DNA of 41,520 nucleotides from K189A clade bacterium (lineage in GTDB: Bacteria > Pseudomonadota > Gammaproteobacteria > Pseudomonadales > Azotimanducaceae). Location of the stretch: positions 1-41,520 of the forward strand of contig CACFGV010000017.1 in NCBI GenBank assembly GCA_902565895.1. Direction: 5' to 3'. A program made the position numbers and the translations under genes. Each line of letters begins with the position of its first letter. The stretch's first letter is position 1. Positions 6,808 to 38,959 of the stretch are shown here, one piece after another. The notes under the pieces were generated by a model. The model saw only the letters and a list, made by a program, of their open reading frames with translations. It made no database searches and was not told where the DNA came from.

Positions 6808-7442
6808 GCCTTATGGTGGGTCACTGGCGGCTTTTTGAAATATGGGTTGTCCGCCATACCCTTTGCAGGATTGAACTTGCAAAAGTGAAATGCTCTGCCG
6901 TGCGAAAAGATTTGAGCTGCCACCGCCCTTGTCCTTCGTGCCAATTCTTTGGTGCCAGAGTCGTAAACCTTTTTGAGAACACCAAAGAGATAGGATTCAT
7001 CAATTGAATCGATAGGAAGCTTGCCAATGGAAGGCAACAAATAGCGGCGGATTAGGCCCGAGTTGCGTTCATAGTGGTGGGTACTCCATGTTTCTCGGTT
7101 ATGTCTTAGCCAAGCAGCTGCGACTGATTCAAATAACTCTTGAGATGCTGCCGCGTTCTTGGTTTTGGCAACGCGCCGCACCACGACAGGATCCTTACCG
7201 GCAGCAACTATCGTCCTAATAGCCAACGCCTTTTGGCAAGCTTATTTTAGCGAAACTTGGGGATACGCCCCAAGGCTCGTGCTTTTTTCGTTGCCGAGTA
7301 CTCGATATCGGAAGAGCCAATGACGGCTTCCGTTCGGACGTATGCGCAGACTAAGTCCGTCACCATCGTTTAAGTAGTAGAGAGCTTCTTTCGATTTGGC
7401 AGCTTTGCACTGCGCTTCGCTCAACAATTTTTCGCCTGACAT
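6808..7442 (-). pseudogene. Broken P4-type tyrosine integrase
   Basis: Reading begins at 7442 with MSGEKLLSEAQCKAAKSKEA, the N-terminal DUF4102 arm-binding domain, and continues through GDGLSLRIRPNGSRHWLFRY to LGAYPQVSLK, where a stop occurs. The homologous text resumes in another frame near 7237 (ACQKALAIRTIVAAGKDPV), so a frameshift has split the gene. The second part carries the core-binding domain (VAAAWLRHNRETWS ... RYLLPSIGKLPIDSI) up to NPYFKKPPVTHHKAL. It then ends without any of the catalytic domain: the R, H-x-x-R and Tyr active-site segment is absent. About 190 residues remain of the usual 400. The family inserts into tRNA and tmRNA 3' ends, agreeing with the repeat at ssrA. Confidence 0.85.
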
Positions 7443-13321: not shown

Positions 13322-13828
13322 CTAACGTTTTGCCTCTTCCAACTGATTCCATACGTCCCAGGGTATTTTTTTCCCGGGAAAAGCAGGCTTTAAAAAAGGC
13401 CACTCTTGAGCGACCCAATTCTCCACAGTGGTCATTAGTTGCTCATCGGTCAGATCTGTCTTGTGCTCTGAAGTTCTGGCCCATAAATAAACTTCAGCAT
13501 CGTGATCTTTTTTAATTGTTGGATTGATATAGACGCAGCCCAGCACTTTCGTTTCGTCTAGCGCTACCACGGTGTAGGCAAATGATCTGCGTTTAGTAAA
13601 TTCTCGTTGATGCCAACCCAGATCAATTAAATTCTCTTCAAGCGTTAGGCCTGAAGGCCAAGTCGAATCTGGCCAAATCTCCTTTAACTTTTCTGAACTT
13701 GAGATCACCGCATCGAAATCTTTAACGAGATCGTTAATGGTGAGCATTCGCAGACGATAGCTTTCAGTTTCAAGTACGCTCGGAATCTCGAAATCAGCAG
13801 GCACGAAGGGATAGGTTGAGGACCCCAT
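13322..13828 (-). CDS. GNAT-family N-acetyltransferase
   Basis: The 168-residue protein starts at ATG 13828. It shows GNAT features: an N-terminal strand ESYRLRMLTINDLVKDF, a middle strand pair FAYTVVALDETKVLGCVYI (substrate and cofactor side) and HDAEVYLWARTSE before the C-terminal helix. The P-loop (Q/RxxGxG/A) is not clear, so the acetyl-CoA site is degenerate or divergent. The substrate is unknown. It is the first gene right of the island and lies 85 bases downstream of the pilin-like gene on the same strand. The family call rests on the pattern PTIKKDHDAEVYLW, common in uncharacterised GNAT proteins. Confidence 0.75.
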   Translation of the reverse strand: MGSSTYPFVPADFEIPSVLETESYRLRMLTINDLVKDFDAVISSSEKLKEIWPDSTWPSGLTLEENLIDLGWHQREFTKRRSFAYTVVALDETKVLGCVYINPTIKKDHDAEVYLWARTSEHKTDLTDEQLMTTVENWVAQEWPFLKPAFPGKKIPWDVWNQLEEAKR

Positions 13829-15606: not shown

Positions 15607-16644
15607 GTGACTGATACAAATCTAAACTCTCTCGATATGGTTAACCAGCTTGATTCTGCGACTGGCTCATCCCCAGAGATAGGCCCCTCCGGACATCCAA
15701 TCGTCCGCACAGAGGACGGGATCATCACCGAAGGAAGCAAAGTGACCTGGGACAAAAAGGCTATTCTTTGGGCGCTGCCCCAGCCGATCCTCGTCGCCAG
15801 CTCCGTACTCCTTGTGGCCGCCATGTTAGTGAACGAATGGGGCGGGGAATACTACCGAGTATGGACACTCATTGTCGCAGTCTCTGCAACGCCATTGCTG
15901 CTGATCGCCGAACGATTTTGGGCCAAAAAACAGTCGTGGCTGCTCAAGCCCGACGAAATGGCAGAAGACGTATTTTGGATGGCATCGGGGGCCTTGCTCT
16001 GGGGCCCCATCGTGTCAGATCTCTACAGTACTCCGGTTTCGGAAGGGTTCCTCGCTCTGCGTGATATATCCCCGTTGCAGATTCAGTTCGAACCTACCAC
16101 CGTACTTGGGCTCATAGGGGCTATGCTGGTAATACGCTTCACCTCCAGCTTCTTTTACTACTGGCTGCACCGGATTCAACATGAATCGCTGTTCTGGTGG
16201 CGCATGCACGCGACGCATCATCACTTAACAAAAATGAGCGCCATGCGCGGCAACCGAACGCACCCATTTGAACATCTAACCCTAGGCCTCGGCACTCCAA
16301 TGGCTTTAGCTCTAATGGGCGCCAGCGATGAAGTATTCATCGTGTCAGCAGCCTTTGGTATGTGGAACGGCAAATTCAACCATGCCAACCTTCCCATGGT
16401 TTCGATGCCTGTGTGGGACTGGTTCTTTGCAACCGCGCAACAGCACCATTGCCATCACTCTTTAGAGCGGCGCCAGGCCGACTCCAACTACGGCTGTGAC
16501 ATCATTTTCTGGGACCGCGTCTTTGGTACTTACTGTGGCGATGCTGAGGTAGGGCCTGCTGGCGCCGGCAAGGGCGTTCGACTTTCTATAAAGGACCAAC
16601 TCATGTTGGCCTTTTATTCAGATAAACGACTAACGAATTTGTAA
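15607..16644 (+). CDS. Sterol desaturase / fatty acid hydroxylase family protein
   Basis: The 345-residue enzyme starts at GTG 15607 behind CAGGAG. It has several hydrophobic helices (about 58-78, 85-102, 125-140, 170-195, 225-250) and the di-iron histidine clusters of the family: HRIQH, HATHHH and QQHHCHH, with the added NHAN after FGMWNGKF. Such membrane proteins use a di-iron centre and O2 to hydroxylate or desaturate lipids, sterols, carotenoids or other apolar substrates. All His boxes are intact. It stands alone, 69 bases after the pilin-like gene, and no lipid-synthesis neighbour points to the substrate. A long polar N-terminus of about 50 residues precedes the first helix. Confidence 0.88.
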   Translation: MTDTNLNSLDMVNQLDSATGSSPEIGPSGHPIVRTEDGIITEGSKVTWDKKAILWALPQPILVASSVLLVAAMLVNEWGGEYYRVWTLIVAVSATPLLLIAERFWAKKQSWLLKPDEMAEDVFWMASGALLWGPIVSDLYSTPVSEGFLALRDISPLQIQFEPTTVLGLIGAMLVIRFTSSFFYYWLHRIQHESLFWWRMHATHHHLTKMSAMRGNRTHPFEHLTLGLGTPMALALMGASDEVFIVSAAFGMWNGKFNHANLPMVSMPVWDWFFATAQQHHCHHSLERRQADSNYGCDIIFWDRVFGTYCGDAEVGPAGAGKGVRLSIKDQLMLAFYSDKRLTNL

Positions 16645-16786: not shown

Positions 16787-17575
16787 TCATTCCAAATGTT
16801 TCATCCCTAATAGACTCCACAATTTCCCGGTTGTGGCTATATAAGATAGAACGACTAACGAGAAGCCAATATAGATTATTGTCCCTACCGACAACGTGGG
16901 CTCGAACCCATACCGCTGAGAGTTATAGATTTTTATCGGCAACGTCTCTACTGAAAAGCCACTCAGCAGGAAAGCCACCACATATTCGTTCATCGATATG
17001 ATCAGTGCGAACAAGCCCCCCGTTATCACGTATGGCCTCACTATTGGCAACACCAGTCCGAATAGCATCTCCCTTTCGGACAGACCCATGAGCGTCGCCG
17101 CATCGACGTGTTCACTATCAACCTGAGATAGGCCCAATTGAGTTGTTACAAGAGGGATGGCGACTAAGAGTGCTACGTGTCCCAATATAATCCCCACCTC
17201 TGTACCCAGAAGCCCAAACATTGACGCGACTAACGAGATCGACACGGCGAAGACAATCCCAGGAATTAGAAACGGTAAACTGATTCCGGCAATCAGAAAG
17301 CGGCTGAACTTCGTATTTCGACGCCAGGCCTCCGTGGCGACCAAAACAGCCAAAGCCATCGCCAATATCGAAGAAATACAAGCGATCACGACACTGTTGA
17401 TCAAAGCACCCGTCCAACTTGGATCAGAAAAAAAAGCTTGATACCAAAGCATGGAAGGATCGGACGGCGGGAAAACCATCTGCCTGGAGCTATTCAGAGA
17501 CGATCCGAACACGATCAAAATGGGTGCATAGAGAAACACCCCAAGGCCGGACAGTGCAAGAATTCTATACATCAC
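16787..17575 (-). CDS. ABC importer permease, PotC-like
   Basis: This 262-residue inner-membrane protein has six predicted helices, the first being ILALSGLGVFLYAPILIVFG. The cytoplasmic coupling motif that docks on the ATPase reads AATLMGLSEREMLFGLVLPI, matching the EAA-loop consensus. It belongs to the spermidine/putrescine and iron(III) importer class. Its start overlaps the end of the PotB-like gene by 11 bases, and that gene overlaps the ATPase gene, so three transporter genes form one minus-strand operon. The substrate is not readable from the permease alone. Confidence 0.9.
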   Translation of the reverse strand: MMYRILALSGLGVFLYAPILIVFGSSLNSSRQMVFPPSDPSMLWYQAFFSDPSWTGALINSVVIACISSILAMALAVLVATEAWRRNTKFSRFLIAGISLPFLIPGIVFAVSISLVASMFGLLGTEVGIILGHVALLVAIPLVTTQLGLSQVDSEHVDAATLMGLSEREMLFGLVLPIVRPYVITGGLFALIISMNEYVVAFLLSGFSVETLPIKIYNSQRYGFEPTLSVGTIIYIGFSLVVLSYIATTGKLWSLLGMKHLE

Positions 17576-18428
17576 GGGAATTTGCGCCCTCCCTGCCGAA
17601 CGCCAGATAAGTCACCCCAACTAAAACGACAACCGTCAATAAAAGACACAGTGCTAGCGCCACCGCGAAGGGCACATTAAAACTGCGCATGAAATCGGCA
17701 ATAAAGACCGAAAACATCCAGTCCGAAGGACGGCCTAGTTGTTGAGAGATGACAAACCCTCCACTGTTCAAGAGAAACAAGAGCAGCCCTGTTTGAAATA
17801 TCGGTCTGCGCAGAACTGGTAACGTAACTCTCCAAAACACCTCTATTTTCGAGAACCCCATCATGCGAGCGGTATCGGAAAGAGACCCATCCATACGGCT
17901 GAGAGGCGGCAGCAGCATGACCATTGCAATGGGAATCGAGAAATAGACCAGGACAAGCAACATAGCTGGGAAACCCGGCCACCAAGAGTTTGCGTCAGTG
18001 AGCAGACCTAACCCTTCCAACCAGCCTGGCAGGCCGCTGCTCTTGGAGAGAATGATTTGCCAGGCATAAGCGGTTAAAACCTCGGACAGCGCAAGACTGG
18101 TCAGTAGCAAAACGACCCAAGTGCTGCGCCAGAAATTCTTCAGACGGGCAATTATGACGGTCAAGGGCATGGCCAACATCAGGGTCAATATAGAGACGAG
18201 TACAACGAGCGCCACCGTATACAACATTCGTCCGACGTAATACGAGTCGTAGAATATTTCTCGAAAATTCTCGAGGCTCCAGCCACCACCTTGGTCGAGG
18301 GCCGTGCCGCTTTCGCTAAAAGCATTACTCAACAAGAAACAGATCGGCAAAACAGAGGTCAAAAGGACAAATAACAACACTGGTAAAGTGGTTAGAAGGG
18401 TCGCCCTTGTCGAATTAGTCCTCGTCAT
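17565..18428 (-). CDS. ABC importer permease, PotB-like
   Basis: This is a 287-residue inner-membrane protein with six predicted helices. The first is LLTTLPVLLFVLLTSVLPIC; a long periplasmic stretch follows (FSESGTALDQGGGWSLENFR), as usual for PotB-type subunits. The EAA-type coupling loop reads DTARMMGFSKIEVFWRVTLP. Start ATG 18428 overlaps the end of the ATPase gene by 14 bases. It pairs with the PotC-like permease and the PotA-like ATPase to form the membrane pore of an importer of the polyamine/iron class. Confidence 0.9.
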   Translation of the reverse strand: MTRTNSTRATLLTTLPVLLFVLLTSVLPICFLLSNAFSESGTALDQGGGWSLENFREIFYDSYYVGRMLYTVALVVLVSILTLMLAMPLTVIIARLKNFWRSTWVVLLLTSLALSEVLTAYAWQIILSKSSGLPGWLEGLGLLTDANSWWPGFPAMLLVLVYFSIPIAMVMLLPPLSRMDGSLSDTARMMGFSKIEVFWRVTLPVLRRPIFQTGLLLFLLNSGGFVISQQLGRPSDWMFSVFIADFMRSFNVPFAVALALCLLLTVVVLVGVTYLAFGREGANSRDV

Positions 18429-19470
18429 TTGCTCTAAAGATAAAAGATTCTGACAAGTCGACGCCGAAAGACACTCGATGAGGCTGGCCGCTCCATAAGT
18501 TATCGATCCAGATAGTTTGCCCTTTATACCTGGCGCATATCTCGTTTCGTCCCCCTAAGTTTCGATAATAGAGGGCCTCCGCCTCTATCTGCCCTGAGGT
18601 AGTTATGGCTTCCGATGAATAATAAAGATCATATTTAGTGTAGGGGGATAAATTCAACGAAGAACATGCAGGGCTCACTAAATTGTTTGTACCCGCCTCG
18701 TAAAGCCCATCCGCTCTATAAAAACAGCTGATGTGATTCCTTTGGCCCACAAACTTCGCGACAAAACTAGAAGTCGGTTTACTCATCAAATCGTCTGGAG
18801 TCCCGACCTGCTCCATCTTCCCGTTGTTCATAACTCCTACCACGTCACTCACGGTGAATGCTTCGTTTTGATCGTGAGTTACCATTACGACACTGATACC
18901 AAGCTTTCTTTGTATGACACGTATTTCGGTACGTAATTCTTCACGTAACTCTGCATCTAGAGCCGAAAACGGCTCATCCAATAATAATAACTTGGGCTCT
19001 TGTGCTAAGGCTCTGGCGATCGCTACTCGCTGGGCTTGCCCTCCAGATATTCTCGACATCGGCCTGTCGCGAAATTCAACCATATGAACCATTTCTAAGA
19101 GGCTTAAAGCTCGGTCGAGTCGTTCGGACTTTGTAAGGTCGAGCTTCTTCAGCGGAAACATAACGTTTTCGACCACGTTGAGATGTGGGAAAAGCGCTAG
19201 GCTCTGGAAAACCATCCCACAATTACGCTCGGCAGGTTTTGCGGACGTGATATTTTTTCCCTCGAAAAACACAGCGCCATTAGAAACTTCCTGCAAACCG
19301 GCAAGTACTCGCAGTAACGTTGTTTTCCCGCATCCTGATGGGCCCAACAAAGCTATGAACTTTCCTGGTGCAATATCCAGATCTACGCCCTTTAATATAG
19401 CAGTCTGCCCCATGGTGACGAACACATCTCGCGCCTCCAGCCCCATGTAGCTGCTCGTTTCAAGTGTCAA
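18415..19470 (-). CDS. ABC importer ATP-binding protein, PotA-like
   Basis: The ATPase drives the importer formed with the two permeases downstream. TTG 19470 gives 351 residues; ATG 19446 (MGLEARDVFV) gives 343 and fits the usual domain start better. The Walker A motif is GPSGCGKTT, the Q-loop MVFQSLALFP, the signature SGGQAQR, the Walker B LLLLDEP and the H-loop VTHD; all are intact. After about residue 235 a C-terminal regulatory (TOBE-like) domain follows, with less typical sequence. A 104-base gap separates it from the divergently transcribed binding-protein gene, so a shared control region lies at 19,471-19,574. Confidence 0.93.
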   Translation of the reverse strand: MTLETSSYMGLEARDVFVTMGQTAILKGVDLDIAPGKFIALLGPSGCGKTTLLRVLAGLQEVSNGAVFFEGKNITSAKPAERNCGMVFQSLALFPHLNVVENVMFPLKKLDLTKSERLDRALSLLEMVHMVEFRDRPMSRISGGQAQRVAIARALAQEPKLLLLDEPFSALDAELREELRTEIRVIQRKLGISVVMVTHDQNEAFTVSDVVGVMNNGKMEQVGTPDDLMSKPTSSFVAKFVGQRNHISCFYRADGLYEAGTNNLVSPACSSLNLSPYTKYDLYYSSEAITTSGQIEAEALYYRNLGGRNEICARYKGQTIWIDNLWSGQPHRVSFGVDLSESFIFRANDED

Positions 19471-19574
19471 TGCCCAAGGAATCCTAAGTGTGTTTAATGC
19501 CAGGCCTTACGCTATGCAAAAAAAATGCCCAGAGGCATACATATTGCAGTCCTTTGAAGGCACGAGGAACAACT

Positions 19575-20642
19575 ATGATAAAACGACGCGTATTGCTAAA
19601 AGGCGCATTACTGTCAGGACTTTTTCCGGCATCACTGGCCAATGCATTCTCACCAAAAGAGCCGCTTAAGGTCTCGGCATTTGGTGGTTTTTTTCAGAAG
19701 GCCTTCGAATCGAGTATCTGTCAAAAGTTCACCGAAGAAACCGGCATACCGGTCACTACGTTCAGTCAAGGACAAGGGGACGATTGGCTCTTCCCATTGA
19801 TAAGGGCCGTTAGAGGCGGCCTTGCCCCAATGGACGTCACCATCCTTGATGAAGTAGGGCTGATAAAGCTAATGGGCATGGGAGACATCGTTCGGTCGCT
19901 GGACCTGGACAAAATGACTAATGCGGGGGCACTCGCAGATCGATACCTGTTCCAGCACAAAGGCGGCACCTTCGGCGTTGGTGTAATGGAATGGTACCAA
20001 AACATCGTGACGAACCCCGAAGCCTTAGTCTCACCGCCTACCTCTTGGCGACAACTATTCGAAGACGATCTCTATAGGGGCAAGATAGGCCTGATAGGTC
20101 TCTACGACGGAGGCATGATAGAGGTCATCGCAAAAACCTATTTCGACGGCAACGAAACCCTAAATACTCGTGCAGGGATCCGAGCAGTCATCGAAAAAGT
20201 TGGAGCGTTAAAAGAACAAGTCGGCTTTTGGTGGACCGCTGAGAGCCAAATGGAACAAGCTATCAGAAGTCAAAACGTAATCGCTGGCTCGTTTTTCCAT
20301 GATGTTGCGCTCTTGCTCAAGGAAGATAACTTTCCGATCGCCTCTACTTTTCCTCTTGAGGGTAGTTTTACCGGCATAAACAAGCTCTGTATTCCGTCCA
20401 CATCAAAGCGAGTTCAAGACGCAGAGATGTTCATCGACTTTTGCGCTAGACCGGATAATCAAGCCAGATTTGCTAGAGAAATGCGCCTTGCTCCGGTCAT
20501 CTCTCAAGAGAGAGCTGGTTTGAACGACATCGAATTCAGTGAGGTAAGCACGACGATTGAGCCTATACCGCAAGCTGCAAATACAATGGTTAAGGACGCA
20601 GATTACCTGCAGCGGCTCTGGCAAAGAATGATCACAAGCTAG
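19575..20642 (+). CDS. ABC importer substrate-binding protein, copy 1
   Basis: I choose ATG 19575 (355 residues) behind CACGAGGAAC; the frame open from 19488 only adds non-signal sequence. The N-terminus MIKRRVLLKGALLSGLFPAS has a twin-Arg motif and hydrophobic core, so export may be by Tat. The mature protein begins near KEPLKVSAFGGFFQKAFESS and follows the PotD/iron(III)-type binding fold (TEETGIPVTTFSQGQGDDW, then APMDVTILDE). It is followed after 49 bases by a clear paralogue, and both are divergent from the permease-ATPase operon. The ligand is unknown; polyamine-like or small amide compounds are possible. Confidence 0.85.
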   Translation: MIKRRVLLKGALLSGLFPASLANAFSPKEPLKVSAFGGFFQKAFESSICQKFTEETGIPVTTFSQGQGDDWLFPLIRAVRGGLAPMDVTILDEVGLIKLMGMGDIVRSLDLDKMTNAGALADRYLFQHKGGTFGVGVMEWYQNIVTNPEALVSPPTSWRQLFEDDLYRGKIGLIGLYDGGMIEVIAKTYFDGNETLNTRAGIRAVIEKVGALKEQVGFWWTAESQMEQAIRSQNVIAGSFFHDVALLLKEDNFPIASTFPLEGSFTGINKLCIPSTSKRVQDAEMFIDFCARPDNQARFAREMRLAPVISQERAGLNDIEFSEVSTTIEPIPQAANTMVKDADYLQRLWQRMITS

Positions 20643-20691
20643 AGCGCACATATGCACATCGTCCGGGGTTATTTGGAAAGGAAGCGATGAA

Positions 20692-21759
20692 ATGAAAAGA
20701 AGATCGTTTATTGCAATGGCTGCATCCACGATTCCAGCGCTTGCATCGCGTGCCTTTGCCTCCTCTGTTCAGAGGCCGTTCACTGTGTCTGCCTATGGGG
20801 GGCTTTTTGAAAAGGCATTCCAACAATACGTCGCCAAGAAATTTACCGCCGAAACAAACATTCCCGTAAGAGTTGTGAGCCAAAGTGGTGACGATGCTTG
20901 GGTATTCGGCCTCGTCAATGCGATCAAGAACGGACTCGCACCGGTGGATTTGACCATACTTAAAGAAGTTGATCTGCTTCGAATTGAAAAGATCGGTAAC
21001 TTACTGGCAAATCTGGAGGTCAACCAGCTCAATAACTTACAGAGCCTGCCCTCACAATATCACTTTGCAAGCAGCGGAGTTCTTCAAGCGGTGGGATTCA
21101 TCGGCTGGTACATCAACCTGGCCAGCAATATAAACCGGCTAGACGGTTCTGCGGTGGAGTCCTGGATAGATGCCTTTGAGAACCCAGACTTCAAAGATGT
21201 GCTGGCGCTGGCAGGATTTTATAATGGGGGCGTCGTCGAGGTTGTTGCGCAGGTCTATTTCGACGGTGAGTCAACACTTATGTCACCAACTGGCCGAAGA
21301 GCGGTGTTCGACAAAATAAAGTCCTTCAAGCCGCAGGTTAAACTCTGGTGGACCGGAGAAAGCCAGATGGAACAGGGACTTCGCAGCGGCAACGTCGCGA
21401 CTGGTATGTATCCTCACGATGTGGCTCTACTTCTGGGTGAGGAAGGGTTTCCAGTTGTATCTAAGTTTCCCAAGGAGTGTGCTTTTATGAATGTAGGGTA
21501 CTACGCGTGCCCCTCGACCTCGCCCTTTTCGGAGCTGGCCGCAAAGTTTATTGACTTTAGCCTACGCCCCGACATTCAACGGACTTTTGCACAAAAGATG
21601 AAGCTCTCCCCCTTGATCGGACGGGAAAATGCTGGCCTGGCAAGTGAGGATTTCAATCTGGTCGCAACCCAGGGCCCCATAGTGAGGCCGGCATCAAGAG
21701 CAATGGTAGAGAACGCCAGCGCGCTCCAGAGGATGTGGCAAAGAACCCTTAGCGGTTAG
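20692..21759 (+). CDS. ABC importer substrate-binding protein, copy 2
   Basis: The 355-residue paralogue of the preceding gene starts at ATG 20692 (MKRRSFIAMAASTIPALASR), again with a twin-Arg type signal. Shared blocks run the whole length: SAYGGLFEKAFQQYVAKKFT against the first copy's SAFGGFFQKAFESS, GFYNGGVVEVVAQVYFDGES against GLYDGGMIEVIAKTYFDGNE, and WWTGESQMEQGLRSGNV against WWTAESQMEQAIRSQNV. The two diverge enough that they probably bind related but different ligands, or one serves as a receptor. The C-terminal ALQRMWQR is also kept in copy 1. It converges on the HRI1-like gene with an 11-base overlap of the ends. Confidence 0.85.
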   Translation: MKRRSFIAMAASTIPALASRAFASSVQRPFTVSAYGGLFEKAFQQYVAKKFTAETNIPVRVVSQSGDDAWVFGLVNAIKNGLAPVDLTILKEVDLLRIEKIGNLLANLEVNQLNNLQSLPSQYHFASSGVLQAVGFIGWYINLASNINRLDGSAVESWIDAFENPDFKDVLALAGFYNGGVVEVVAQVYFDGESTLMSPTGRRAVFDKIKSFKPQVKLWWTGESQMEQGLRSGNVATGMYPHDVALLLGEEGFPVVSKFPKECAFMNVGYYACPSTSPFSELAAKFIDFSLRPDIQRTFAQKMKLSPLIGRENAGLASEDFNLVATQGPIVRPASRAMVENASALQRMWQRTLSG

Positions 21760-22402
21760 TGCCGCTCTCTTCCACAACCTCCCAATGAGGATCGGATAAG
21801 CTTTCTAACAAACCGTGCACGCAAGCTCCTCTACCGACAGAAGATATTAGTTTTAGGCCGCCTGAGGACATACTCACGTGAATAGCACAGGCCCCTTCTA
21901 CAGCGATGGATTCGGTTCCCTGGTCAACCCTCACAGACCTTATTTTCGAGCCGTTGTGTCGCACGGATGCCTTACATGGGGCGCTGATTTTCTCGATAGA
22001 CCAAGTCTCCTCAAAGTCCTTTCTAACACCATCAATCAGTATGTAACCCCTCTCGATACAAAAAGAATTTTTGAACTCAAAGTCTGCATTGTCATTTTCA
22101 TCAATACCTTGTGTATTTAGCAGGTGATGAAAACAAAGCCTGGGGTTGCCCCAATCGACTGTCCCAGCGAAAGCATAGCTTTCCAGACCAGAGCAGCGCG
22201 GAAAAGTCCTTATATCTGCAAACCATTTTTCCGCCTGCAGCCAAACGACCGTAGCGTTTTCTTCTACTATTTCCCCAGCTATCCGCATCCCGGTGCGCGT
22301 GTTCTTCGTATTCAGAAGTTGAGGGCAGCCCTTGGGGAATGAATCACTCACGATCCGTCGTACTCCCCACAAAGACTCTTTGAGCTGCTGTGTGCCGACC
22401 AA
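21749..22402 (-). CDS. HRI1-like (lipocalin-like) domain protein of unknown function
   Basis: The frame is given from TTG 22402; CTG 22405 and an internal ATG at 22288 are alternatives, and no start has a strong binding site. The chain follows a pattern I associate with the HRI1-like family: SLWGVRRIVSD, then VVWLQAEKWFADIRTFPRCS, AFAGTVDWGNPRLCFHHLLN and KDFEETWSIEKI, with beta strands throughout and no signal or membrane helix. These proteins are thought to be lipocalin-like beta barrels and have no proven biochemistry in bacteria. It lies 60 bases downstream of the oxygenase gene on the same strand, which suggests that it serves the same pathway, perhaps binding a substrate or product. Confidence 0.55.
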   Translation of the reverse strand: MVGTQQLKESLWGVRRIVSDSFPKGCPQLLNTKNTRTGMRIAGEIVEENATVVWLQAEKWFADIRTFPRCSGLESYAFAGTVDWGNPRLCFHHLLNTQGIDENDNADFEFKNSFCIERGYILIDGVRKDFEETWSIEKISAPCKASVRHNGSKIRSVRVDQGTESIAVEGACAIHVSMSSGGLKLISSVGRGACVHGLLESLSDPHWEVVEESGTNR

Positions 22403-22462
22403 CAGCCAACGTACTCGCGATTTTGTTCTTTACAAACAATTGCGGTTGGTTTGTCGAGATTT

Positions 22463-23572
22463 TTAAGTAGCGGATCTCTGTTCGAGTAACGCCTCTTCCT
22501 CCTTGGAGATGCGTTTGAAGGGGTTTTCGTCAGCAATTTCAAAATCAACCTTGAGTTCGCCCGAATCTATTAAGTTTCTCAAATACGGGAAAACTTTTAT
22601 TGTCCTTCCCCAAAGGTGTTCTCCAGCGACAAAGCTGGGATATCGTTCCCGAGCGCTCTGGGTATCAAAAGGTTTCTCGGGACGAACCACACAATCAAAA
22701 TCAGCCCCAAAAAAGAATGGTAGCGAGCATCTGCTCGCTCCTCTATTTACAACCCTATGCTGGGTAGCCGTCAATTTTCCGCCGCTCCAGGCTTCTAACA
22801 CATCGCCAATCAATACAATAAAGTGATTATCGACCGGTGGCGTTTCCACCCAATGGCCTTGTGATGATAGCAGCTGAAGACCTGGCCCCGTCGCATGTAA
22901 GATCGTAAAACACTCAAAATCAGAGTGAGCGTCTATCCCGTGATGAAATTCATCTGCCGGTGCATCGTTTTCCAAATAATTGAGCAGGCGGAGCTGAGAC
23001 GTTGGGGCATTGATGTGCCGTAACAGTTGGCCCTGCGCCATCCCTAGCCCGAGCTCAAAAATCCCAAGTAGATCCCGTCCCAAAGAGTACACAGAATCGT
23101 AATAGCTTTTCACGTTAGATCGAAAATTCGGTAGGTCAGGCCATATATTAGGGCCTACCAGGCCGTAACCGTTTTGAGTTCTTTCGTCGCCAGGATCTAG
23201 ATCGTAAGACAGATCATAGGACTCATAAAAAACCTGATGCGACTCATTGTCTTTTTCAAACTGTCCAATTTCTGAAAACGGCACCCACCCACGATGATGC
23301 TTGCTGTGTTTTATGTGGTACTGCTCTTTATATGTTGCGGGCTGGTGGTGGAAGGCCTTGCTCGCGGCATATACGTCGTCTATTTTGCTTTGCTTTATCC
23401 CGTGCCCTGAGAGATAAAAGAACCCTTTAGTCGTAACAATATCAATAACGTTTAACGCCGCCGCGATTTTTTCTTCATCGCTCTTTGCAGCCCAGCCTGA
23501 AATGTCCACGGTGGGCAGACTTTCCCAAGACTGAGCTCCAGTAAAAACATCCGTCGCAGTCATTTGTGACAC
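22463..23572 (-). CDS. 2-oxoglutarate/Fe(II) oxygenase, isopenicillin N synthase-like family
   Basis: The 369-residue enzyme has the DIOX_N start (LPTVDISGWAAKSDEEK, TTKGFFYLSGHGI) and the 2OG-Fe(II) core. Iron ligands are His216 and Asp218 in DAHSDFECFTILH and His272 in ATQHRVVN; Arg281-x-Ser283 in SRCSLPFFFG binds 2-oxoglutarate. All are present, so it should be active. Members hydroxylate, demethylate or cyclise small molecules. The TauD-type xanthine dioxygenase of fungi is a different branch, so xanthine use cannot be claimed. The hydrolase gene lies 23 bases upstream and the HRI1-like gene 60 bases downstream on the same strand. With the ABC importer nearby, the likely role is oxidative attack on an imported N-containing compound. 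Confidence 0.9.
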   Translation of the reverse strand: MSQMTATDVFTGAQSWESLPTVDISGWAAKSDEEKIAAALNVIDIVTTKGFFYLSGHGIKQSKIDDVYAASKAFHHQPATYKEQYHIKHSKHHRGWVPFSEIGQFEKDNESHQVFYESYDLSYDLDPGDERTQNGYGLVGPNIWPDLPNFRSNVKSYYDSVYSLGRDLLGIFELGLGMAQGQLLRHINAPTSQLRLLNYLENDAPADEFHHGIDAHSDFECFTILHATGPGLQLLSSQGHWVETPPVDNHFIVLIGDVLEAWSGGKLTATQHRVVNRGASRCSLPFFFGADFDCVVRPEKPFDTQSARERYPSFVAGEHLWGRTIKVFPYLRNLIDSGELKVDFEIADENPFKRISKEEEALLEQRSAT

Positions 23573-23595
23573 AAAAGGTCTCCTATTCCAGATCG

Positions 23596-24225
23596 TTAGA
23601 GACTCGCCAGGGTGCTCTTCCCTGAAAGCGCATCTAACTCTTTGATCACTTTCACAGAGCTACATCTCGCTCCTGTCTGCAAATACTCCATTGCATTAAG
23701 CGACGCCTCATGAGCCTCTAAGGAAGATCCGATTACAGCATCTTCTACCACTCGACAATAATAATCATGCTGATGTCCATCAACGAAAGAGTAGTGGACG
23801 CACACATCGGTCAAGCCGCCAACGAGAATTAGCGTATCCGCCTTGAGCCCCTTCATAAGAATCTCAAAGTCAGTACCAAAAAAGCAGGAGTATCGGCGCT
23901 TTCGAATGAAATAATCGTCCTCTTTCATCCCGATCTCGCTCCGAATCTCGGTGCCAAAATCCCCTTCAAGAAGATGCACATCCTCTTGACCATCTAGCTC
24001 TCTACCGAAATCAACCAAGTCACGGCGATGCGCCTCCTGTATGAAAACGATTGGCACGTTCACTTCTCGGCATTTGCCTATCAGCGCTGCCGCCCTGGCT
24101 ACCCAGCTGCCGTCGCTTTCCATATGCGGGATTGTTTGATCCCCATCAGGAGAAGGTGGGTCCCCGTTTTGAATATCGACCACCACCAGGACCGGGTTGC
24201 CCACGATAAACGGTTGTACTGCCAT
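23596..24225 (-). CDS. Isochorismatase-fold cysteine hydrolase
   Basis: The 209-residue enzyme starts at ATG 24225 (MAVQPFIVGNPVLVVVDIQN). The catalytic triad is complete: Asp17 in VVVDIQ, Lys109 in RKRRYSCFFGT and Cys142 in GLTDVCVHYS, with the usual cis-peptide region just before. The family splits amides such as nicotinamide, N-carbamoylsarcosine, ureidoacrylate, biuret and triuret. The long insert GRELDGQEDVHLLEGDFGTE is shared by a subgroup whose substrate I do not know. It comes first in the transcript with the 2OG oxygenase and HRI1-like genes. An amide or ureide released by the oxygenase is the likely substrate, by context only. Confidence 0.9.
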   Translation of the reverse strand: MAVQPFIVGNPVLVVVDIQNGDPPSPDGDQTIPHMESDGSWVARAAALIGKCREVNVPIVFIQEAHRRDLVDFGRELDGQEDVHLLEGDFGTEIRSEIGMKEDDYFIRKRRYSCFFGTDFEILMKGLKADTLILVGGLTDVCVHYSFVDGHQHDYYCRVVEDAVIGSSLEAHEASLNAMEYLQTGARCSSVKVIKELDALSGKSTLASL

Positions 24226-24391: not shown

Positions 24392-26938
24392 TCAGAATTT
24401 GTAGCTCAAAATCACAGAAACTGTTCGGCCCTCAGATGGCTTAACCACTACCGAATCGAACAGATCAGCAGACGTGTAGTACTTTTCGTCCGTGAGATTG
24501 TTGACAGTTGCCATAATTTCGTACCTTCCAGACAGGTAGCTCATAGACGCGGTCCAAACTGAGTAGGATGGAAGTAAAACGGATTCCATTACGTCCATGT
24601 AAGTTTCATCTGCGTATGTGAAACCCAGGCTGGCAATAGCTTTGGCGTCGCCGATCGCCATAGAGTAGCTGGCATACGCACTAGCTACCGTATCCGGTAA
24701 ACCGCCTCGGTCCACTTCCACTTGACTGCCGATAAAGGTGCCGCGGTAGCCCCCAACCCTGCCGCCATATAAGTCGGTTACTTCTAGACCGTTTTGCTGC
24801 GCGAATTGCTCAGCGTTTATTATCGCTAAAGCGCCATCGCTGATCTCTGTCGTTTCGCTTTTTGTGAAAGTAGCCGCGAGAGAGAACGACTCGCTGAGGA
24901 CTAATCGAAGTTCGCCCTCGTAGCCCTTACCAAATACAGCAACAAGCGCTTGAGTTTGAGCGTCTCGGTATGATTTCTCCTGGTCATAGTAGGCAAGAGC
25001 CGCATAAAGTCCGCCGCCCATCGCGTTAAACTTTATCCCCGCCTCTTTTATTTCTGAGCCCTGTACGAAACTGCCGTCATCAACGGTCCCTGGAAGAATG
25101 CCTCCCAGTTGGTTTGTGCTAAGGCTATTGGATTCTGCGACAGTAACATATGGAATGACGCTGTTGCCCGCATCATACGACACGCTGAGGTTATAGCTTG
25201 TCGCACCCTTATCACCTCTATGAATTCCAGAAGAATCGAATGGAATACCGAGCAAAGACAATGCGTCTTCTCTAGAGGTGGCACTGAACTTGTCATACCG
25301 TGCCCCTGCAAGAACTTTAATAGGGCCGATTTTTGTGTCAGTGAAGAAGAACGCACCTGCGTTGTATAGGACGCTTTTTTGTTCACCGTTGAAGTTTCTT
25401 CTAACGGTTCCATCAAGTCCCGATATATTTCCGTCCTCATCGTAAAGGATAGTTGCATCTGCCCACGGGTTAACCACTGCCCAATCGATTCTGTCGTCCG
25501 GGGTCGGCCCTACCAACATGTCTCTACGATCGAAGAACTCATCAAACCAGGCCTCTTTATGGTCCTTGTCCTCTTTCCGAATACTGGCCCCTATTACGGT
25601 AGTAGACGAGCCAACATCCGTCTCGATGGTTCGAGTGAAGCTTGATCTAAATTCCATTACCTCCGCACCTGGGTACAAAGCTGTGAACCCCCAGCTTTGG
25701 TGCTTAGTGTGATCCAAGTAGTCGTAGAAAAATTGGTTTTTCCATACGGTGCCGCTGTCGAAATTCGTGACGATATCAAAATAAGCAGTGGTTGCTGTTG
25801 TGTCAGCAAAGTCCAACGAGTCGATAAACGTCGTTCGGTGGTCGATCTTAGCCGTTCCAACGTTCGTAATAGGATTAATCGGGTTGAAGGCACAAACGTC
25901 TTGCGTTTGTCCTTTGAATGTGAACGTGAGGCCCTGAGCAGTACTGTTACCGCAAAAAGTCGTTACGCCACTGAACGAACTATTGATAAAAAATGGGGCA
26001 TTAGGCGTGACAAAACCCGACTCTTGAGGGGTTAGCCGGTCTGAGCCGATAGAGTTGGATGCATCATTTCGCGAATCCGGAGATCCGGTGATGTAAGTGC
26101 CGTTATCCACCAAATCCTGCGTGACTCTAGTCCAGCCCGGAACCTGGATACTATCCGTGGTTTGGTGCTGTATGCCGAACTCAATGGAGGTCGATTCACT
26201 GTAGTCTACGTCGAAGGCAACCTGTACTAGTTCGCTGGTAGGCGCATAGCCATGGTAAAACGATTCCGAGTCCTCGACTTCTGCGAAAATGTACAAACCG
26301 GCCTGTTTGCCCCCAACATTGAAGGGCATCCCGTATTCTCCTGACAATATTCTTTGGTTGTAAGAACCCAGCGTGAGGTCGACTCTACCCGTCGGTGCGC
26401 TGATGTACTTTGCGGTGTCACTCTTTGCTGACTTTGGCGAGTAATTAAGCTGTCCGCCAACACTGCCGCTGCCATAGAGAGGAGATACTGGGCCGCGCAG
26501 GATCTCGAGCGAATGCGCTCCTCTTACTATCGTGTTGAAAGCTCCGGGGTTATTTATGCGACGAAAGCCACGAAAATAGTTATCAGCGGCCTCACCTCTT
26601 ATGTCCATAGCGCCTCGGATACCAAAAAAGGAGCTAGTAAACGCGCCAGGGGTTAAACGAACCAAGTCGTCTACGCTCCGCAACGCATAAGTTTTTATTA
26701 AGTCCGAGCTCACCTCAGTGACCGACCTTGGCGTTTCTAGAAGCGAGAGACTTAGACCGAATGCGCCTTCAGAGGGTTCACTTGGCAGTATCGACAAGTC
26801 GTCAACGATTTCGGAAACAACGAAATCCTCAAGCTCTGCGACGTCCCCCTCTTCGTCGGCGTACGCTTGGACAGGAAGCAACGAAGCGGCAGTAAAAGCT
26901 GTTATAGCGGTGATTAGGGAAATAATTCTCGTGTACAT
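24392..26938 (-). CDS. TonB-dependent receptor at the purine locus
   Basis: The 848-residue receptor starts at ATG 26938 behind GGAGG, with signal peptide LITAITAFTAASLLPVQAYA. The plug region carries LLETPRSVTEVSSDLI, ALRSVDDLVRLTPGAF, DIRGEAADNYFRGFRRINNP and EILRGPVSPLYGSGSVGGQL. The barrel ends in GRTVSVILSYKF, with the terminal Phe usual for insertion. It imports a scarce compound across the outer membrane with TonB energy. By sequence it resembles siderophore-type receptors (ETPRSV start), but neighbours are the NCS2 permease, 256 bases upstream on the same strand, and the cysteine hydrolase gene 166 bases downstream. A purine or a ureide is therefore as likely a ligand as iron complexes. 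No His-rich loops are present. Confidence 0.85.
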   Translation of the reverse strand: MYTRIISLITAITAFTAASLLPVQAYADEEGDVAELEDFVVSEIVDDLSILPSEPSEGAFGLSLSLLETPRSVTEVSSDLIKTYALRSVDDLVRLTPGAFTSSFFGIRGAMDIRGEAADNYFRGFRRINNPGAFNTIVRGAHSLEILRGPVSPLYGSGSVGGQLNYSPKSAKSDTAKYISAPTGRVDLTLGSYNQRILSGEYGMPFNVGGKQAGLYIFAEVEDSESFYHGYAPTSELVQVAFDVDYSESTSIEFGIQHQTTDSIQVPGWTRVTQDLVDNGTYITGSPDSRNDASNSIGSDRLTPQESGFVTPNAPFFINSSFSGVTTFCGNSTAQGLTFTFKGQTQDVCAFNPINPITNVGTAKIDHRTTFIDSLDFADTTATTAYFDIVTNFDSGTVWKNQFFYDYLDHTKHQSWGFTALYPGAEVMEFRSSFTRTIETDVGSSTTVIGASIRKEDKDHKEAWFDEFFDRRDMLVGPTPDDRIDWAVVNPWADATILYDEDGNISGLDGTVRRNFNGEQKSVLYNAGAFFFTDTKIGPIKVLAGARYDKFSATSREDALSLLGIPFDSSGIHRGDKGATSYNLSVSYDAGNSVIPYVTVAESNSLSTNQLGGILPGTVDDGSFVQGSEIKEAGIKFNAMGGGLYAALAYYDQEKSYRDAQTQALVAVFGKGYEGELRLVLSESFSLAATFTKSETTEISDGALAIINAEQFAQQNGLEVTDLYGGRVGGYRGTFIGSQVEVDRGGLPDTVASAYASYSMAIGDAKAIASLGFTYADETYMDVMESVLLPSYSVWTASMSYLSGRYEIMATVNNLTDEKYYTSADLFDSVVVKPSEGRTVSVILSYKF

Positions 26939-27194: not shown

Positions 27195-28544
27195 CTAGCT
27201 TCTAATTACTCTCGTTAAAATGATCGCTATTAGGATTCCGGTTGCTACGGGAAAACCCATTATTATCGCTGCGTATTGAGGTAGTTCGATAGAAAGGACG
27301 TTCAGCAATTGGGGCAATCCGGTGAGCATAAAGGCGCACAAGGTCGAACCGATTAGCACCTTATATCCAGATACAGGGTCGGCCTTGACAGCAAGTCCGA
27401 ACCCAGTGACGGCAATCATGCCAAATAGAAAGAGAGTCGCTCCGTTGATTACTGATCCCGGTATTTGCAAAAACCCGGCGCTAATTAAGGGTATGCTGCC
27501 CATTATTGTCAGCAATACCGCTAGCACCAAACCGACTCGCCTGCTTGCTACGCCGGTAATGCGGATCACCGCATTGTTTTGACTAAAAGTCGTATTTGGG
27601 AATGAACCGAATAAGGCGGCAAGCACTGTGTTGAGTCCGTCAGCAACGATCCCGCCGCGCAATCTCTGCACATATTCCTCTCCCTCAATAGGACGCTGCG
27701 ATACAGAGCTCGTCGCCGTTAGGTCTCCGATACTCTCTGTCAGTGACACCAAAAAAATCGGCATCAGAATTGCGAGCATTAAAAGGTCAATGTTAAGCGG
27801 AAATCGAAAAAACTGCGGAACAAACCAGATTTCTGACGTATCTCCTACGTTCCACTCGAGATTGCCAGCTAGAAGGGCTGCAACACAACCTACGACTATG
27901 CCGATCGGAATGCTAAGCAAGCGCAGCCAGGGTTGCTTGGCTCTAGAAAGAAACAATATGACCAAAAAGGTGAGAGCTATCTCTGTGCAGATGATGTACA
28001 GCTCTGTGGAAGCCGCTGCTCCTAGAATTCGATTTAAGTTGGTGACAGCAGATATGACCAGCGAAAGCCCCAACAAAAAGACTACGGTCCCCGCCACTAC
28101 TGGCGTGATGATTTTTTGTACTTGGTTCAAAAACGTGCCTGCTATCGCCACCGCGACCCCTCCTGCGGCGCAGGAGCCGAGAAGTATTCCTGCTATTTCT
28201 TCGCTAGAAGTCCCTTCTGGAAAGGTAGCAGCAGCGTAGGCCATGGGTCCGATAAAGGCGAAGCTGGTGCCTTGAACAGATAATAACCCCGATCCTACCC
28301 ACCCAAATCGGTAGACTTGCACAAAAGTCGCGATGCCTGAAATGAATAGTGAAGCGCTAACCACGTAGCGCGTTGAAGCTTCGCTCAAGCCGATAACTCC
28401 TGCCAGTAGCAAAGGCGCTGCCATGATGCTTGCAACAATCGCAGAAAGATGAGCAACTGCGGCTAACACCGAACGCAGGGGTGGAGGTCGGTCCTCAAGA
28501 GCAAATAATAAAGGGTCTGAACTTGCTCGGTTATGATGTCTCAT
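27195..28544 (-). CDS. NCS2 family purine/pyrimidine permease (xanthine or urate type)
   Basis: The 449-residue inner-membrane symporter starts at ATG 28544 and has about 12-14 helices, typical in length. The NCS2 signature appears as TFSQNNAVIRITGVASRRVG (compare QNxGxxxxTGVxSR, with Ala replacing the usual Gly). Conserved acidic residues occur in FLVSLTESIGDLTATSSVS and RGGIVADGLNTVLAALFGSF. Members import uracil, xanthine or uric acid with a proton or sodium. The surrounding urate-producing and urate-using genes favour xanthine or urate. It is divergent from the AtzG-like gene with 280 bases between; no operator was recognised there. Confidence 0.9.
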   Translation of the reverse strand: MRHHNRASSDPLLFALEDRPPPLRSVLAAVAHLSAIVASIMAAPLLLAGVIGLSEASTRYVVSASLFISGIATFVQVYRFGWVGSGLLSVQGTSFAFIGPMAYAAATFPEGTSSEEIAGILLGSCAAGGVAVAIAGTFLNQVQKIITPVVAGTVVFLLGLSLVISAVTNLNRILGAAASTELYIICTEIALTFLVILFLSRAKQPWLRLLSIPIGIVVGCVAALLAGNLEWNVGDTSEIWFVPQFFRFPLNIDLLMLAILMPIFLVSLTESIGDLTATSSVSQRPIEGEEYVQRLRGGIVADGLNTVLAALFGSFPNTTFSQNNAVIRITGVASRRVGLVLAVLLTIMGSIPLISAGFLQIPGSVINGATLFLFGMIAVTGFGLAVKADPVSGYKVLIGSTLCAFMLTGLPQLLNVLSIELPQYAAIIMGFPVATGILIAIILTRVIRS

Positions 28545-28824
28545 CAGTAATTAGCGATCTTATTGTTCTTTTGATAGTTGTTCATAAGTAGCCAAACCTA
28601 TTTTCAGTCGGCGGGAAGAGTATATTGGGCCAGGCACTGCCCATGCTTTCCCACGCGAGAGAGCTGAAAGATGCCATGTCCTTTTTCGCACTTATCGCAA
28701 TTCCGCCCTATCACTTTCCATGGCCGCGCGCTGGTCATCTTCCGCTTATTGTATAGCTTTTGATAATAGACGCTTGCCCTTACGATGTACCGTCGAGGCG
28801 TAACATCAAACCCACGGAGGTAAC

Positions 28825-29055
28825 TTGGAACAAAGGGAAGATCGACAAACTAATCTTGAACATTTCGACTGCGATCAGTTTACAGATATCGCGGCCAAAG
28901 CCTTGGGCGTGAACATCAAGGACGAACACCGTCAAGGCGTGATCGACAATGTAGAAATTGCCAAATCGATGGCGATAAAGGTATTTTCGGCTTCAATGGA
29001 TTCTAACTGCTCAAGTATTGCGCCTACGTTCTCGCCAAAGGCCAGAGATCTTTAG
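28825..29055 (+). CDS. AtzG-like (DUF4089, HpxX-like) amidase partner subunit
   Basis: This 76-residue protein starts at TTG 28825 right after CGGAGG. Its pattern ALGVNIKDEHRQGVIDNVEI followed by AKSMAIKVFSASM matches DUF4089, the GatC-like small subunit of AtzE amidases (compare LGLPI..E.R.GV..N). In the AtzG/AtzE complex the small subunit stabilises the amidase; in Klebsiella the matching pair is HpxX/HpxY in the purine-degradation cluster. The amidase gene follows after 32 bases on the same strand. The last residues (FSPKARDL) differ from the usual short PVFRP end but remain similar. Confidence 0.85.
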   Translation: MEQREDRQTNLEHFDCDQFTDIAAKALGVNIKDEHRQGVIDNVEIAKSMAIKVFSASMDSNCSSIAPTFSPKARDL

Positions 29056-29087
29056 TACTACTTACCGATTGGGTCACACAAATAACG

Positions 29088-30506
29088 ATGTCAAAAAGTG
29101 TTTCTGATCAAGTCAACCAGCCCTGGTCGGGAATTCGAGATCATCTCGAAAAGTTAGAAAGTGGAGTTCTCACGATTGAAGAGGTCGTTGACACCGTTTT
29201 TGAAAAGATTGAGCAACTAGACAACGGTATCAACGCATTTACCTCGGTTTTACACGAGAGGGCGCGAGCGCGGGCCAGTTTTTTGGATCAAGCTGATTTG
29301 AAGAAGGATTCCGTGCCATTGCTAGGAGTGCCATTTGGCGTGAAAAACCTTTTCGACATCAAAAACCACGTTACGTTAGCGGGCAGCAAAATTAACAAAC
29401 GAAATGTTGCAGCCCTCCAAGACGCGCTGTTAATCAGACGTCTGGAAAATTGCGGCGCGATCCTAGTAGGTGCCTTGAACATGGGTGAATATGCCTACGA
29501 CTTTACTGGCGAAAACGTGCACTTCGGCAATTGCAGAAATCCCTGGGACCCGACAAGAATGGCCGGTGGCTCATCTTCTGGGAGTGCTGCCGCAGTAGCC
29601 TCCAATATGCTGCCGATAACTCTGGGCAGCGACACAAACGGCAGCATAAGGGTCCCAGCCTCGCTTTGCGGCATTTTTGGTCTTAAGCCCACTTACGGGC
29701 GCCTACCTCGATCCGGAACATATCCATTTTGCGACAGCTTGGATCACGTTGGTCCCTTGGCCCAATCTTGCGAAGATTTAGCCGTGGTTTATGACTGTTT
29801 GCAGGGATTTGATAAGGCTGACCATGCTTGCGTCTCACGGAATCTAGAGTTTGTGGCAAAAACGGCCGCCGGAACTGACAAGTCATTGCGCATCGGAATA
29901 TTAGAAGGTTATTTTGCAAACCCTCAATTCGTGGATGCGAACAAAGCAGTCAGCTTTGTTGCTGATGCGTTAGTAGATGATGGCTTTTCGGTTGAGCGCT
30001 GCAACCTCGAGTTTGCAGAGGCTGGCCGTAGCGCAGCATTCTTGATAACCAACGTAGAAGGCGCAGCACTGCACGAATCGAGGTTGCGAAGCCAACCCGA
30101 AGATTTTGATCCTGATACTCGCGACCGCTTCATTGCGGGAAGCCTGTTGCCCGCCAGCTGGTATATCAAAGCACAGAAAGTACGCAAACTCTTTGCTGAG
30201 GAGGCAGCCGCCCTATTTCAATCCTTTGACGTGCTGATAGCCCCGTCAACGCCAATTCGGGCGCCGAAAATTGGTCAAAAAACGATGGCTATTAATGGTG
30301 AAGAAGTCAATGTTCGTGCCAACCTGGGGTATTTCACGCAGCCGATCTCCTGTATCGGCCTACCAAGCCTGAGCGTTCCTATATCGTCACGGGATCGGCT
30401 CCCAATCGGGGTTCAATTGGTTGCGGCCCCGTGGCTGGAGCGTCACTGTTTTGAGGTAGGTTTTCGTTTGCAATCGTTGGGACTGGCAGTCTCAAAACGG
30501 GCTTGA
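29088..30506 (+). CDS. AtzE-type amidase (HpxY-like), amidase signature family
   Basis: The 472-residue hydrolase starts at ATG 29088. The Ser-cisSer-Lys triad is present: Lys86 in VPFGVKNLFDI, the cis-Ser in AGGSSSGSAAAV (about 162) and nucleophile Ser186 in GSDTNGSIRVPASLCG. The TNGSIRVP form, where most amidases have TGGSIR, marks AtzE relatives. AtzE with AtzG hydrolyses 1-carboxybiuret in cyanuric acid breakdown; HpxY of the Klebsiella purine pathway is a relative. Beside purine genes the likely substrate is a small ureide, for example a product of allantoate or of oxidised urate. It converges with the 8-oxoguanine deaminase gene (10-base gap). Confidence 0.88.
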   Translation: MSKSVSDQVNQPWSGIRDHLEKLESGVLTIEEVVDTVFEKIEQLDNGINAFTSVLHERARARASFLDQADLKKDSVPLLGVPFGVKNLFDIKNHVTLAGSKINKRNVAALQDALLIRRLENCGAILVGALNMGEYAYDFTGENVHFGNCRNPWDPTRMAGGSSSGSAAAVASNMLPITLGSDTNGSIRVPASLCGIFGLKPTYGRLPRSGTYPFCDSLDHVGPLAQSCEDLAVVYDCLQGFDKADHACVSRNLEFVAKTAAGTDKSLRIGILEGYFANPQFVDANKAVSFVADALVDDGFSVERCNLEFAEAGRSAAFLITNVEGAALHESRLRSQPEDFDPDTRDRFIAGSLLPASWYIKAQKVRKLFAEEAAALFQSFDVLIAPSTPIRAPKIGQKTMAINGEEVNVRANLGYFTQPISCIGLPSLSVPISSRDRLPIGVQLVAAPWLERHCFEVGFRLQSLGLAVSKRA

Positions 30507-30516
30507 CTAGCAATGC

Positions 30517-31896: not shown

Positions 31897-32029
31897 AACT
31901 TCCCTCTAGCTGAAGGTTTACAGATCACCATACCACGACCCTTTAATTCGCCGGATGTCGATTCCGTTTCCGTTTCATTGGTGTGTTCGTTACTGACAAA
32001 CGATAACGAAATCGTCGAAAAATTAGTCT

Positions 32030-32046
32030 TTGTCGAACGTTGACAA
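32030..32046 (+). promoter_or_regulatory. Candidate operator between 8-oxoguanine deaminase and xdhA
   Basis: TTGTC GAACGTT GACAA is a 17-base inverted repeat (arms 5 bases, centre nearly symmetric) in the divergent control region. A second weak one, CGAT/ATCG, lies near 32,001-32,014. The location suits a repressor controlling both transcripts, but no regulator gene is present in the window and the arms are short. Confidence 0.35.
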
Positions 32047-32094
32047 GAGTGTTTGGCAGTAAGACTGTAGTAACTTACAAAATGACGCTAACAA

Positions 32095-33588: not shown

Positions 33589-33589
33589 A

Positions 33590-36737: not shown

Positions 36738-36781
36738 CCCCTCCCTGAAAACTAGTAAGGCAACCACTGCTCGAGAGACCG

Positions 36782-37297: not shown

Positions 37298-37302
37298 TCG
37301 TC

Positions 37303-38958: not shown

Positions 38959-38959
38959 T

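Follow-up and report, generated by a model that had tools for sequence, protein, structure and literature searches.

A conserved gene module with an MgdH/MgdL-like pair that may release guanidine from an imported compound in a K189A clade bacterium

Guanidine riboswitches and guanidine-degrading operons are widespread. According to the excerpted text of PMC12186494, few pathways are known to produce guanidine. In October 2025 the N-(hydroxymethyl)guanidine lyase MgdL and its partner MgdH, a methylguanidine hydroxylase, were described from Vreelandella boliviensis (PMC12508155, Nat Commun 2025). According to that publication MgdL needs D49 and R51 and has a narrow substrate range, methylguanidine and N,N-dimethylguanidine are the sole tested compounds on which MgdH acted, and the natural sources of methylguanidine are called elusive. 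Here we analyse a contig of 41,520 nucleotides from a K189A clade bacterium of the Azotimanducaceae (assembly GCA_902565895.1, contig CACFGV010000017.1), called the window throughout, in which eight genes encode a PotABC-type importer, two binding proteins, an isochorismatase-family cysteine hydrolase (ISO), an MgdH-like 2-oxoglutarate (2OG) oxygenase and an MgdL-like lyase. We consider it rather likely that a guanidinium-type compound is taken up through this module, that the hydrolase, the oxygenase and the lyase set free guanidine from it, and that a guanidine carboxylase then uses the guanidine.

Like the V. boliviensis system of PMC12508155, the module has adjacent 2OG oxygenase and lyase genes, the lyase residues corresponding to D49 and R51, a carboxylase in the same genome and an ABC importer in the cluster. 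In contrast, the window adds the isochorismatase-type hydrolase and a PotABC-type importer with two binding proteins, the carboxylase of its genome lies on another contig and no guanidine riboswitch was found. The guanylurea hydrolase of Pseudomonas mendocina MET, which the excerpted PMC9800807 places in a guanidine-yielding pathway, is also of the isochorismatase family, but ISO is only 26% identical to it and falls elsewhere in the tree. The permease, ATPase and binding-protein types are those of the spermidine/putrescine importer PotABCD, from which the window differs in having two binding proteins, encoded on the opposite strand, and NCBIfam scores that are all below cut-off. Finally, the Rieske oxygenases GbcA and CntA share their domains with an enzyme found only in the operons of relatives, which scores far below the GbcA cut-off and next to which no reductase gene was recognised by eye.

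Conservation of the gene module

A check of the open reading frames bears out the original prediction in that all eight genes are uninterrupted and lie where it had placed them (Table 1). That prediction had described a module for import, 2OG-dependent oxidation and hydrolysis, had linked it to the neighbouring purine genes, had labelled one protein HRI1-like and had known of no described pathway; the module is supported, whereas the other three statements are not. With the oxygenase as query, 97 genomes (the window's own included) yielded 22 matches at E 1e-20. Five copies with more than 60% identity are present in four other genomes, all of the same genus: one each in G023, G025 and G034 and two in G014 (G numbers denote genomes, L numbers loci), the closest being that of G023 with 87% identity. 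Around all five the gene order is kept to the limit of each contig, which gives 46 kb to inspect in G025, 49 kb in G034, 5 and 12.7 kb in G014 and 12 kb in G023: ISO, oxygenase and lyase, the two binding-protein genes convergent with these, and then PotABC. The original prediction had proposed a neighbourhood comparison for clusters lacking one of the genes, and none is lacking in the five close copies as far as their contigs extend. The module is a real, conserved gene set and more than a chance neighbourhood.

Family-wide, a search at E 1e-60 gave matches in 6 of 206 genomes, counting that of the window. The one not yet mentioned is G152 with 52% identity, and its 13 kb oxygenase contig carries neither ISO nor the lyase nor the importer. 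An order-wide search of 390 genomes at E 1e-90 found this type of oxygenase only in the window's own genome.

The operons of the relatives contain further genes. The oxygenase gene is beside the MgdL-type gene in the window and in the five copies, with a Rieske oxygenase gene between the two in G014, G025 and G034, which the modules of the window and of G023 do not have. The Rieske enzyme has Rieske and Ring_hydroxyl_A domains, and its best NCBIfam match is the glycine betaine monooxygenase GbcA, at 124 bits where the model's cut-off is 670. Elsewhere in the window genome, which is 69% complete, and in G023 its homologues reach only 35% and 30% identity, respectively. Upstream of ISO, an SSADH-like gene (617 bits, slightly under the model's cut-off of 646) is found in G025 and G034 and, recognised by eye, a fragment of one at one G014 copy; it is absent beside the module in the window and beside the other G014 copy. 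Close to one of the two G014 copies there is also a GFA-family gene. Homarine-type degradation was considered for the Rieske gene and SSADH, and a literature search gave no support for it.

The MgdH-like oxygenase and the MgdL-like lyase

The protein once labelled HRI1-like scores 23.7 bits for HRI1 (PF16815), below the Pfam gathering cut-off of 27, and only one of 15 aligned homologues matches HRI1 at E <= 1, so that this label should be dropped. Judged by profile comparison, the protein is instead a distant homologue of MgdL. Aligning the window-type lyases (A3, 5 rows) with the MgdL-type proteins (A5, 10 rows) by hhalign gave 95.1% and E 3.2e-8. At the positions that D49 and R51 occupy in the protein of locus L064 the window lyase has D63 and R65, and all 20 aligned MgdL-like proteins are identical at R36, V52, W54, Q56, D63, R65, E132 and W134 (window numbering). 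The column of E117 was invariant in the first lyase alignment but not in the alignment of 20 proteins. Among plasmids the window lyase had no match at E 0.01.

The oxygenase is in turn a homologue of MgdH. It is 38% identical to the oxygenase of L064, and H216, D218, H272 and R281, which we presume to be the Fe and 2OG ligands, are conserved. In a tree of 40 rows, for which the program warns of long outgroup branches, the window type and G152 form one clade (100/100) that is sister to a pair of oxygenases linked to PAS and LysE-like genes (99/95). The outgroups were 11 of the 17 distant loci L007–L023 from the search of 97 genomes, six being left out; a single-protein scan of genome contigs had added two distant loci, L034 and L035, the former of which was also left out of the tree.

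The distant loci link such oxygenases to guanidine. Class-wide, 5 of 369 genomes had matches and phylum-wide 16 of 398; both samples include the window genome and share G603. The 21 distant oxygenase matches are covered by 20 fetched regions, ten of which hold an MgdL-like gene, directly adjoining the oxygenase in nine and two genes off in L070, and eight of these ten also hold a urea/guanidine carboxylase. The remaining ten regions have a TIM-barrel gene in seven cases, PAS and LysE-like genes in two and none of these in one. At L064 the representatives of urea carboxylase, allophanate hydrolase and two UAAP proteins are over cut-off, the latter presumably being the carboxyguanidine deiminase pair CgdA/B. 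Oxygenase and lyase lie there between the carboxylase and the allophanate hydrolase, which is preceded by further genes. This cluster resembles the published MgdH/MgdL operon, with which it also shares the two types of riboswitch, and in our comparisons L064 stands in for V. boliviensis. Guanidine-I and guanidine-II riboswitches are present in L064 and L080, and a guanidine-I riboswitch in L073, one of seven regions scanned together.

The lyase profile A4 found 15 loci, the window's own included, in 14 of the 398 phylum genomes. Nine of the other 14 loci had served to build the profile, and only L121–L125 are new; an MgdH-like gene is present in ten of the 14 and a carboxylase in seven. At L121 (2096–14457), a second MgdH/MgdL-like locus in G603, a short MgdH-like frame and an MgdL-like gene occur together with a ureohydrolase and with a PotABC-type importer and its binding protein; a PhyH-type oxygenase is found there as well. 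L122–L125 gave no MgdH match in 16–17 kb each, and all four carry a creatininase-family gene, an isochorismatase-type gene and an MgdL-like gene (L122, 7010–9077; L123, 6703–8776; L124, 8003–10777; L125, 7906–10879). In L122, L123 and L125 the isochorismatase-type gene shares 56–63% identity with a guanylurea hydrolase, with which that of L124 groups, and guanidine-I riboswitches are present in L122 and L123, the two of these loci that were scanned. With these sets a creatinine-like compound might be converted enzymatically to guanidine. L071 and L081 have creatininase-family genes as well. The seven loci in which an MgdH-like oxygenase lies beside a xylose-isomerase-like TIM-barrel protein (L065, L068, L069, L074, L075, L077 and L081) contain an arginine-type binding protein in six cases and a ureohydrolase in two, and these clusters are perhaps of a guanidino type too.

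Hydrolase, importer, carboxylase and neighbouring genes

ISO is encoded by the first gene of the operon and ends 23 bases before the oxygenase gene; in L030 it overlaps its next gene. D17, K109 and C142, which we take to be the catalytic triad, are invariant across the four module copies aligned. Homologues with 51–60% identity occur on plasmids, the best of them in Rhodobacterales and Rhizobium. In four genera (Paracoccus, Sulfitobacter, Roseovarius and Yoonia) the homologue comes after the genes of an ABC importer and is itself followed by a DMT transporter. Ornithine cyclodeaminase is a neighbour in three of the four, RidA in two and an SugE-type SMR protein in one; CtlX, a Rieske gene and SpeB are near it in one of the same genera. 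The homologue of Ruegeria has patchy annotation, and that of Streptomyces is in a different setting. In Rhizobium WYJ-E13 the ISO homologue comes after a PotABC-type importer and a gene resembling that of the first binding protein (SBP1). A function of ISO as guanylurea hydrolase (GuuH) was rejected on its identity and its separate place in the tree, the published gene in CP098607 being inferred from its deaminase neighbour. ISO would act on an amide or ureide and trim such a precursor.

Going by gene content, the importer would work like PotABC. The frames of its three genes overlap one another, and the three match the PotC, PotB and PhnT2/PotA models best, below the cut-offs in all cases. 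The two binding proteins share 42% identity and match solved polyamine, GABA-sensor, opine and similar chains with E values of about 1e-3 to 6e-9. Polyamine, GABA-sensor and mannopine binding proteins are among the chains matched by the first, and spermidine/putrescine binding proteins are the best for the second. For the first binding protein the start is more likely the ATG at 19575, as a signal-like sequence begins at residue 30. A PotABC-type importer with a binding protein recurs beside the second MgdH/MgdL-like pair (L121) and beside an ISO homologue at L118.

Table 1. Module genes and two possible companions in the window
Gene product	Position	Strand	Family assignment and remarks
PotC-type permease	16787..17575	-	BPD_transp_1; NCBIfam best PotC, below cut-off
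PotB-type permease	17565..18428	-	BPD_transp_1; NCBIfam best PotB, below cut-off
PotA-type ATPase	18415..19470	-	ABC_tran; NCBIfam best PhnT2 and PotA, below cut-offs; start possibly 19446
First solute-binding protein	19488..20642	+	SBP_bac_8, 79 bits
Second solute-binding protein, PotD-like	20692..21759	+	SBP_bac_8, 53.6 bits
MgdL-like lyase (earlier HRI1-like)	21749..22402	-	Profile match to MgdL-type proteins
MgdH-like Fe(II)/2OG oxygenase	22463..23572	-	PF14226 (DIOX_N) and PF03171 (2OG-FeII_Oxy)
Isochorismatase-family cysteine hydrolase (ISO)	23596..24225	-	PF00857, 122 bits
FA_hydroxylase-family membrane protein, possible companion	15607..16644	+	PF04116, 89 bits
GNAT-like protein, possible companion	13322..13828	-	Only E 0.085 to a GNAT family

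At the end of contig 51, outside the window, the window genome encodes a carboxylase that exceeds the TIGR02712 cut-off, and four of the five module genomes have one (the window's, G014, G025 and G034). Its neighbours include CgdA/B-type (UAAP) genes in three of the four and an allophanate hydrolase in two, the contig of the window genome being cut there. Across the genus a carboxylase is matched at E 1e-200 in 12 of 40 genomes, and in 11 of them it is over the cut-off. It is present in four of the five genomes with the module and in eight of the 35 without (one-sided Fisher p 0.022, a test that ignores kinship and incompleteness). G152 has no carboxylase over the TIGR02712 cut-off.

Two neighbouring proteins may be companions of the module. 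Homologues of the FA_hydroxylase-family protein occur in G025 and G034 at the guanidine carboxylase (gca) loci (43%) and in G152 on the contig that carries the oxygenase (63%). Homologues of the GNAT-like protein adjoin PotC in G014, G025 and G034 (55–59% identity), and further ones with 36–37% identity are at two gca loci and in G152. L096 and L097, where G025 and G034 have their carboxylase, and L042 of G152 are the sites at which both proteins recur. The TonB receptor at 24392–26938 was dropped as a module member, as in G023 an M14 peptidase gene is at its place.

Farther along the window, 27195–41235 holds a purine-to-allantoate cluster with 8-oxoguanine and guanine deaminases, xanthine dehydrogenase, HIU hydrolase, OHCU decarboxylase, urate oxidase with a cytochrome-like tail, allantoinase and an NCS2 permease. 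A tmRNA gene at 3533–3889 is followed 3 kb on by a phage-integrase fragment (6747–7226), as at the scar of an integrated island. At 621–3429 a TonB-receptor-like gene with long His/Asp/Glu-rich repeats, seen by eye, lies beside a gene for a small His-rich protein, and the pair looks metal-related.

Proposed route and alternatives

From the gene content we infer a substrate class and an order of steps. The two binding proteins would feed the PotABC-type importer with a guanidinium-type compound, whose amide or ureide part would be removed by ISO. The oxygenase, proposed here as a guanidino-compound hydroxylase, would use O2 and 2OG to hydroxylate the carbon on a guanidine nitrogen, and the lyase would split the resulting hemiaminal into guanidine and an aldehyde, which would be formaldehyde if a methylguanidine is the substrate. 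The guanidine carboxylase pathway encoded elsewhere in the genome would then use the guanidine as a nitrogen source. We regard the chemistry of the oxygenase–lyase pair as likely.

Several observations weigh against this route. The window lyase is only 19% identical to that of L064, and the clade of the L064 and other gca-linked oxygenases (96/89) does not include the window oxygenase. Among 114 columns that are near-invariant in MgdL-linked oxygenases, the window type has the same residue throughout in 66, which include the presumed Fe and 2OG ligands; many of the remaining columns are conserved in the TIM-linked group and changed in the window type, a pattern which fits the same type of reaction on a different substrate. 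No characterised enzyme is close to ISO. G023, which is 93% complete and has the module, gave no carboxylase match over the cut-off, and in G014 the reading frame of the carboxylase is split in two. A scan of the window at E 5 showed no guanidine riboswitch, and none passed the gathering cut-off in the module loci L025, L027, L029 and L030 or the carboxylase loci L094–L097 of the genus, so that control by guanidine riboswitches is not supported; the window module is also no riboswitch-controlled operon uniting gca, cgdA/B and atzF in one cluster. An arginase-family (guanidinase-type) enzyme was not matched in the five module genomes, and a guanidinase route was rejected for this reason. As the oxygenase lies outside the gca-linked clade, no guanidine riboswitch was found and one module genome shows no carboxylase, the substrate may not be methylguanidine.

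What else the substrate might be is suggested by the additional genes of the relatives. SSADH favours a semialdehyde as the product, while the GFA-family gene would rather suit formaldehyde. We tentatively entertain, as a possibility on the unlikely side, that the imported substrate is a guanidino compound in conjugated form, either an omega-guanidino acid or an N-acylated guanidine, which the hydrolase, the distinct MgdH-related oxygenase and its lyase convert to guanidine and a semialdehyde, thereby feeding guanidine-carboxylase bacteria. Somewhat more doubtful is the specific proposal that an omega-guanidino acid such as 4-guanidinobutyrate, which the hydrolase would make from an amide or carbamoylated form, is hydroxylated and split to guanidine and succinate semialdehyde, which the neighbouring SSADH oxidises to succinate. 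It would explain the SSADH-like genes near ISO and suit an oxygenase unlike the gca-linked group at many kept positions, and, according to the excerpts of PMC12186494, arginine and homoarginine yield guanidine through the action of other 2OG enzymes. However, more than 600 bases separate SSADH from ISO where both occur, the gene is missing at two modules, and the published MgdH accepted only methylguanidine and N,N-dimethylguanidine of the compounds tested, MgdL being narrow as well (PMC12508155).

It is quite improbable that the pair demethylates an N-methylated compound other than a guanidine, for example a betaine, with the Rieske enzyme of the relatives as a betaine-type demethylase. GbcA is the best match of this enzyme, though a distant one, and the GFA-family gene would also fit; on the contrary, MgdL-like genes sit with guanidine genes or riboswitches in most loci examined, and the modules of the window and G023 manage without the Rieske gene. 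The purine, methylated base or ureide of the original prediction, imported and degraded within the neighbouring purine pathway, is the least probable substrate. The purine-to-allantoate genes with their own NCS2 permease do adjoin the module in the window, but on the module contigs of the four other genomes, those of G025 and G034 being long, the only match to any of them is an AtzE-type amidase with 29% identity, located in L033 far from the module. G014 and G023 say little on this link because only short stretches are seen there. In addition, the oxygenase–lyase pair points to guanidine, and the module has probably nothing to do with the adjoining purine genes.

We read the module as a variant of the MgdH/MgdL system that comes with its own importer and a further hydrolase and would release guanidine from an imported guanidinium-type compound. 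The core chemistry of the oxygenase and the lyase is known; the pair was described in 2025 (PMC12508155), which overtakes the statement that no pathway had been described. In the open-licence PMC papers searched we found no description of its assembly with such a hydrolase and importer or, as in three relatives, with a Rieske oxygenase in addition. The cassette of importer, hydrolase, oxygenase and lyase offers a concrete and testable route from a conjugated compound to guanidine, and a gene set without an assigned role becomes a defined substrate screen. The MgdL lyase family is extended to more distant members. If a conjugated guanidino compound is indeed the substrate, bacteria with a guanidine carboxylase would have a dedicated enzymatic source of guanidine.

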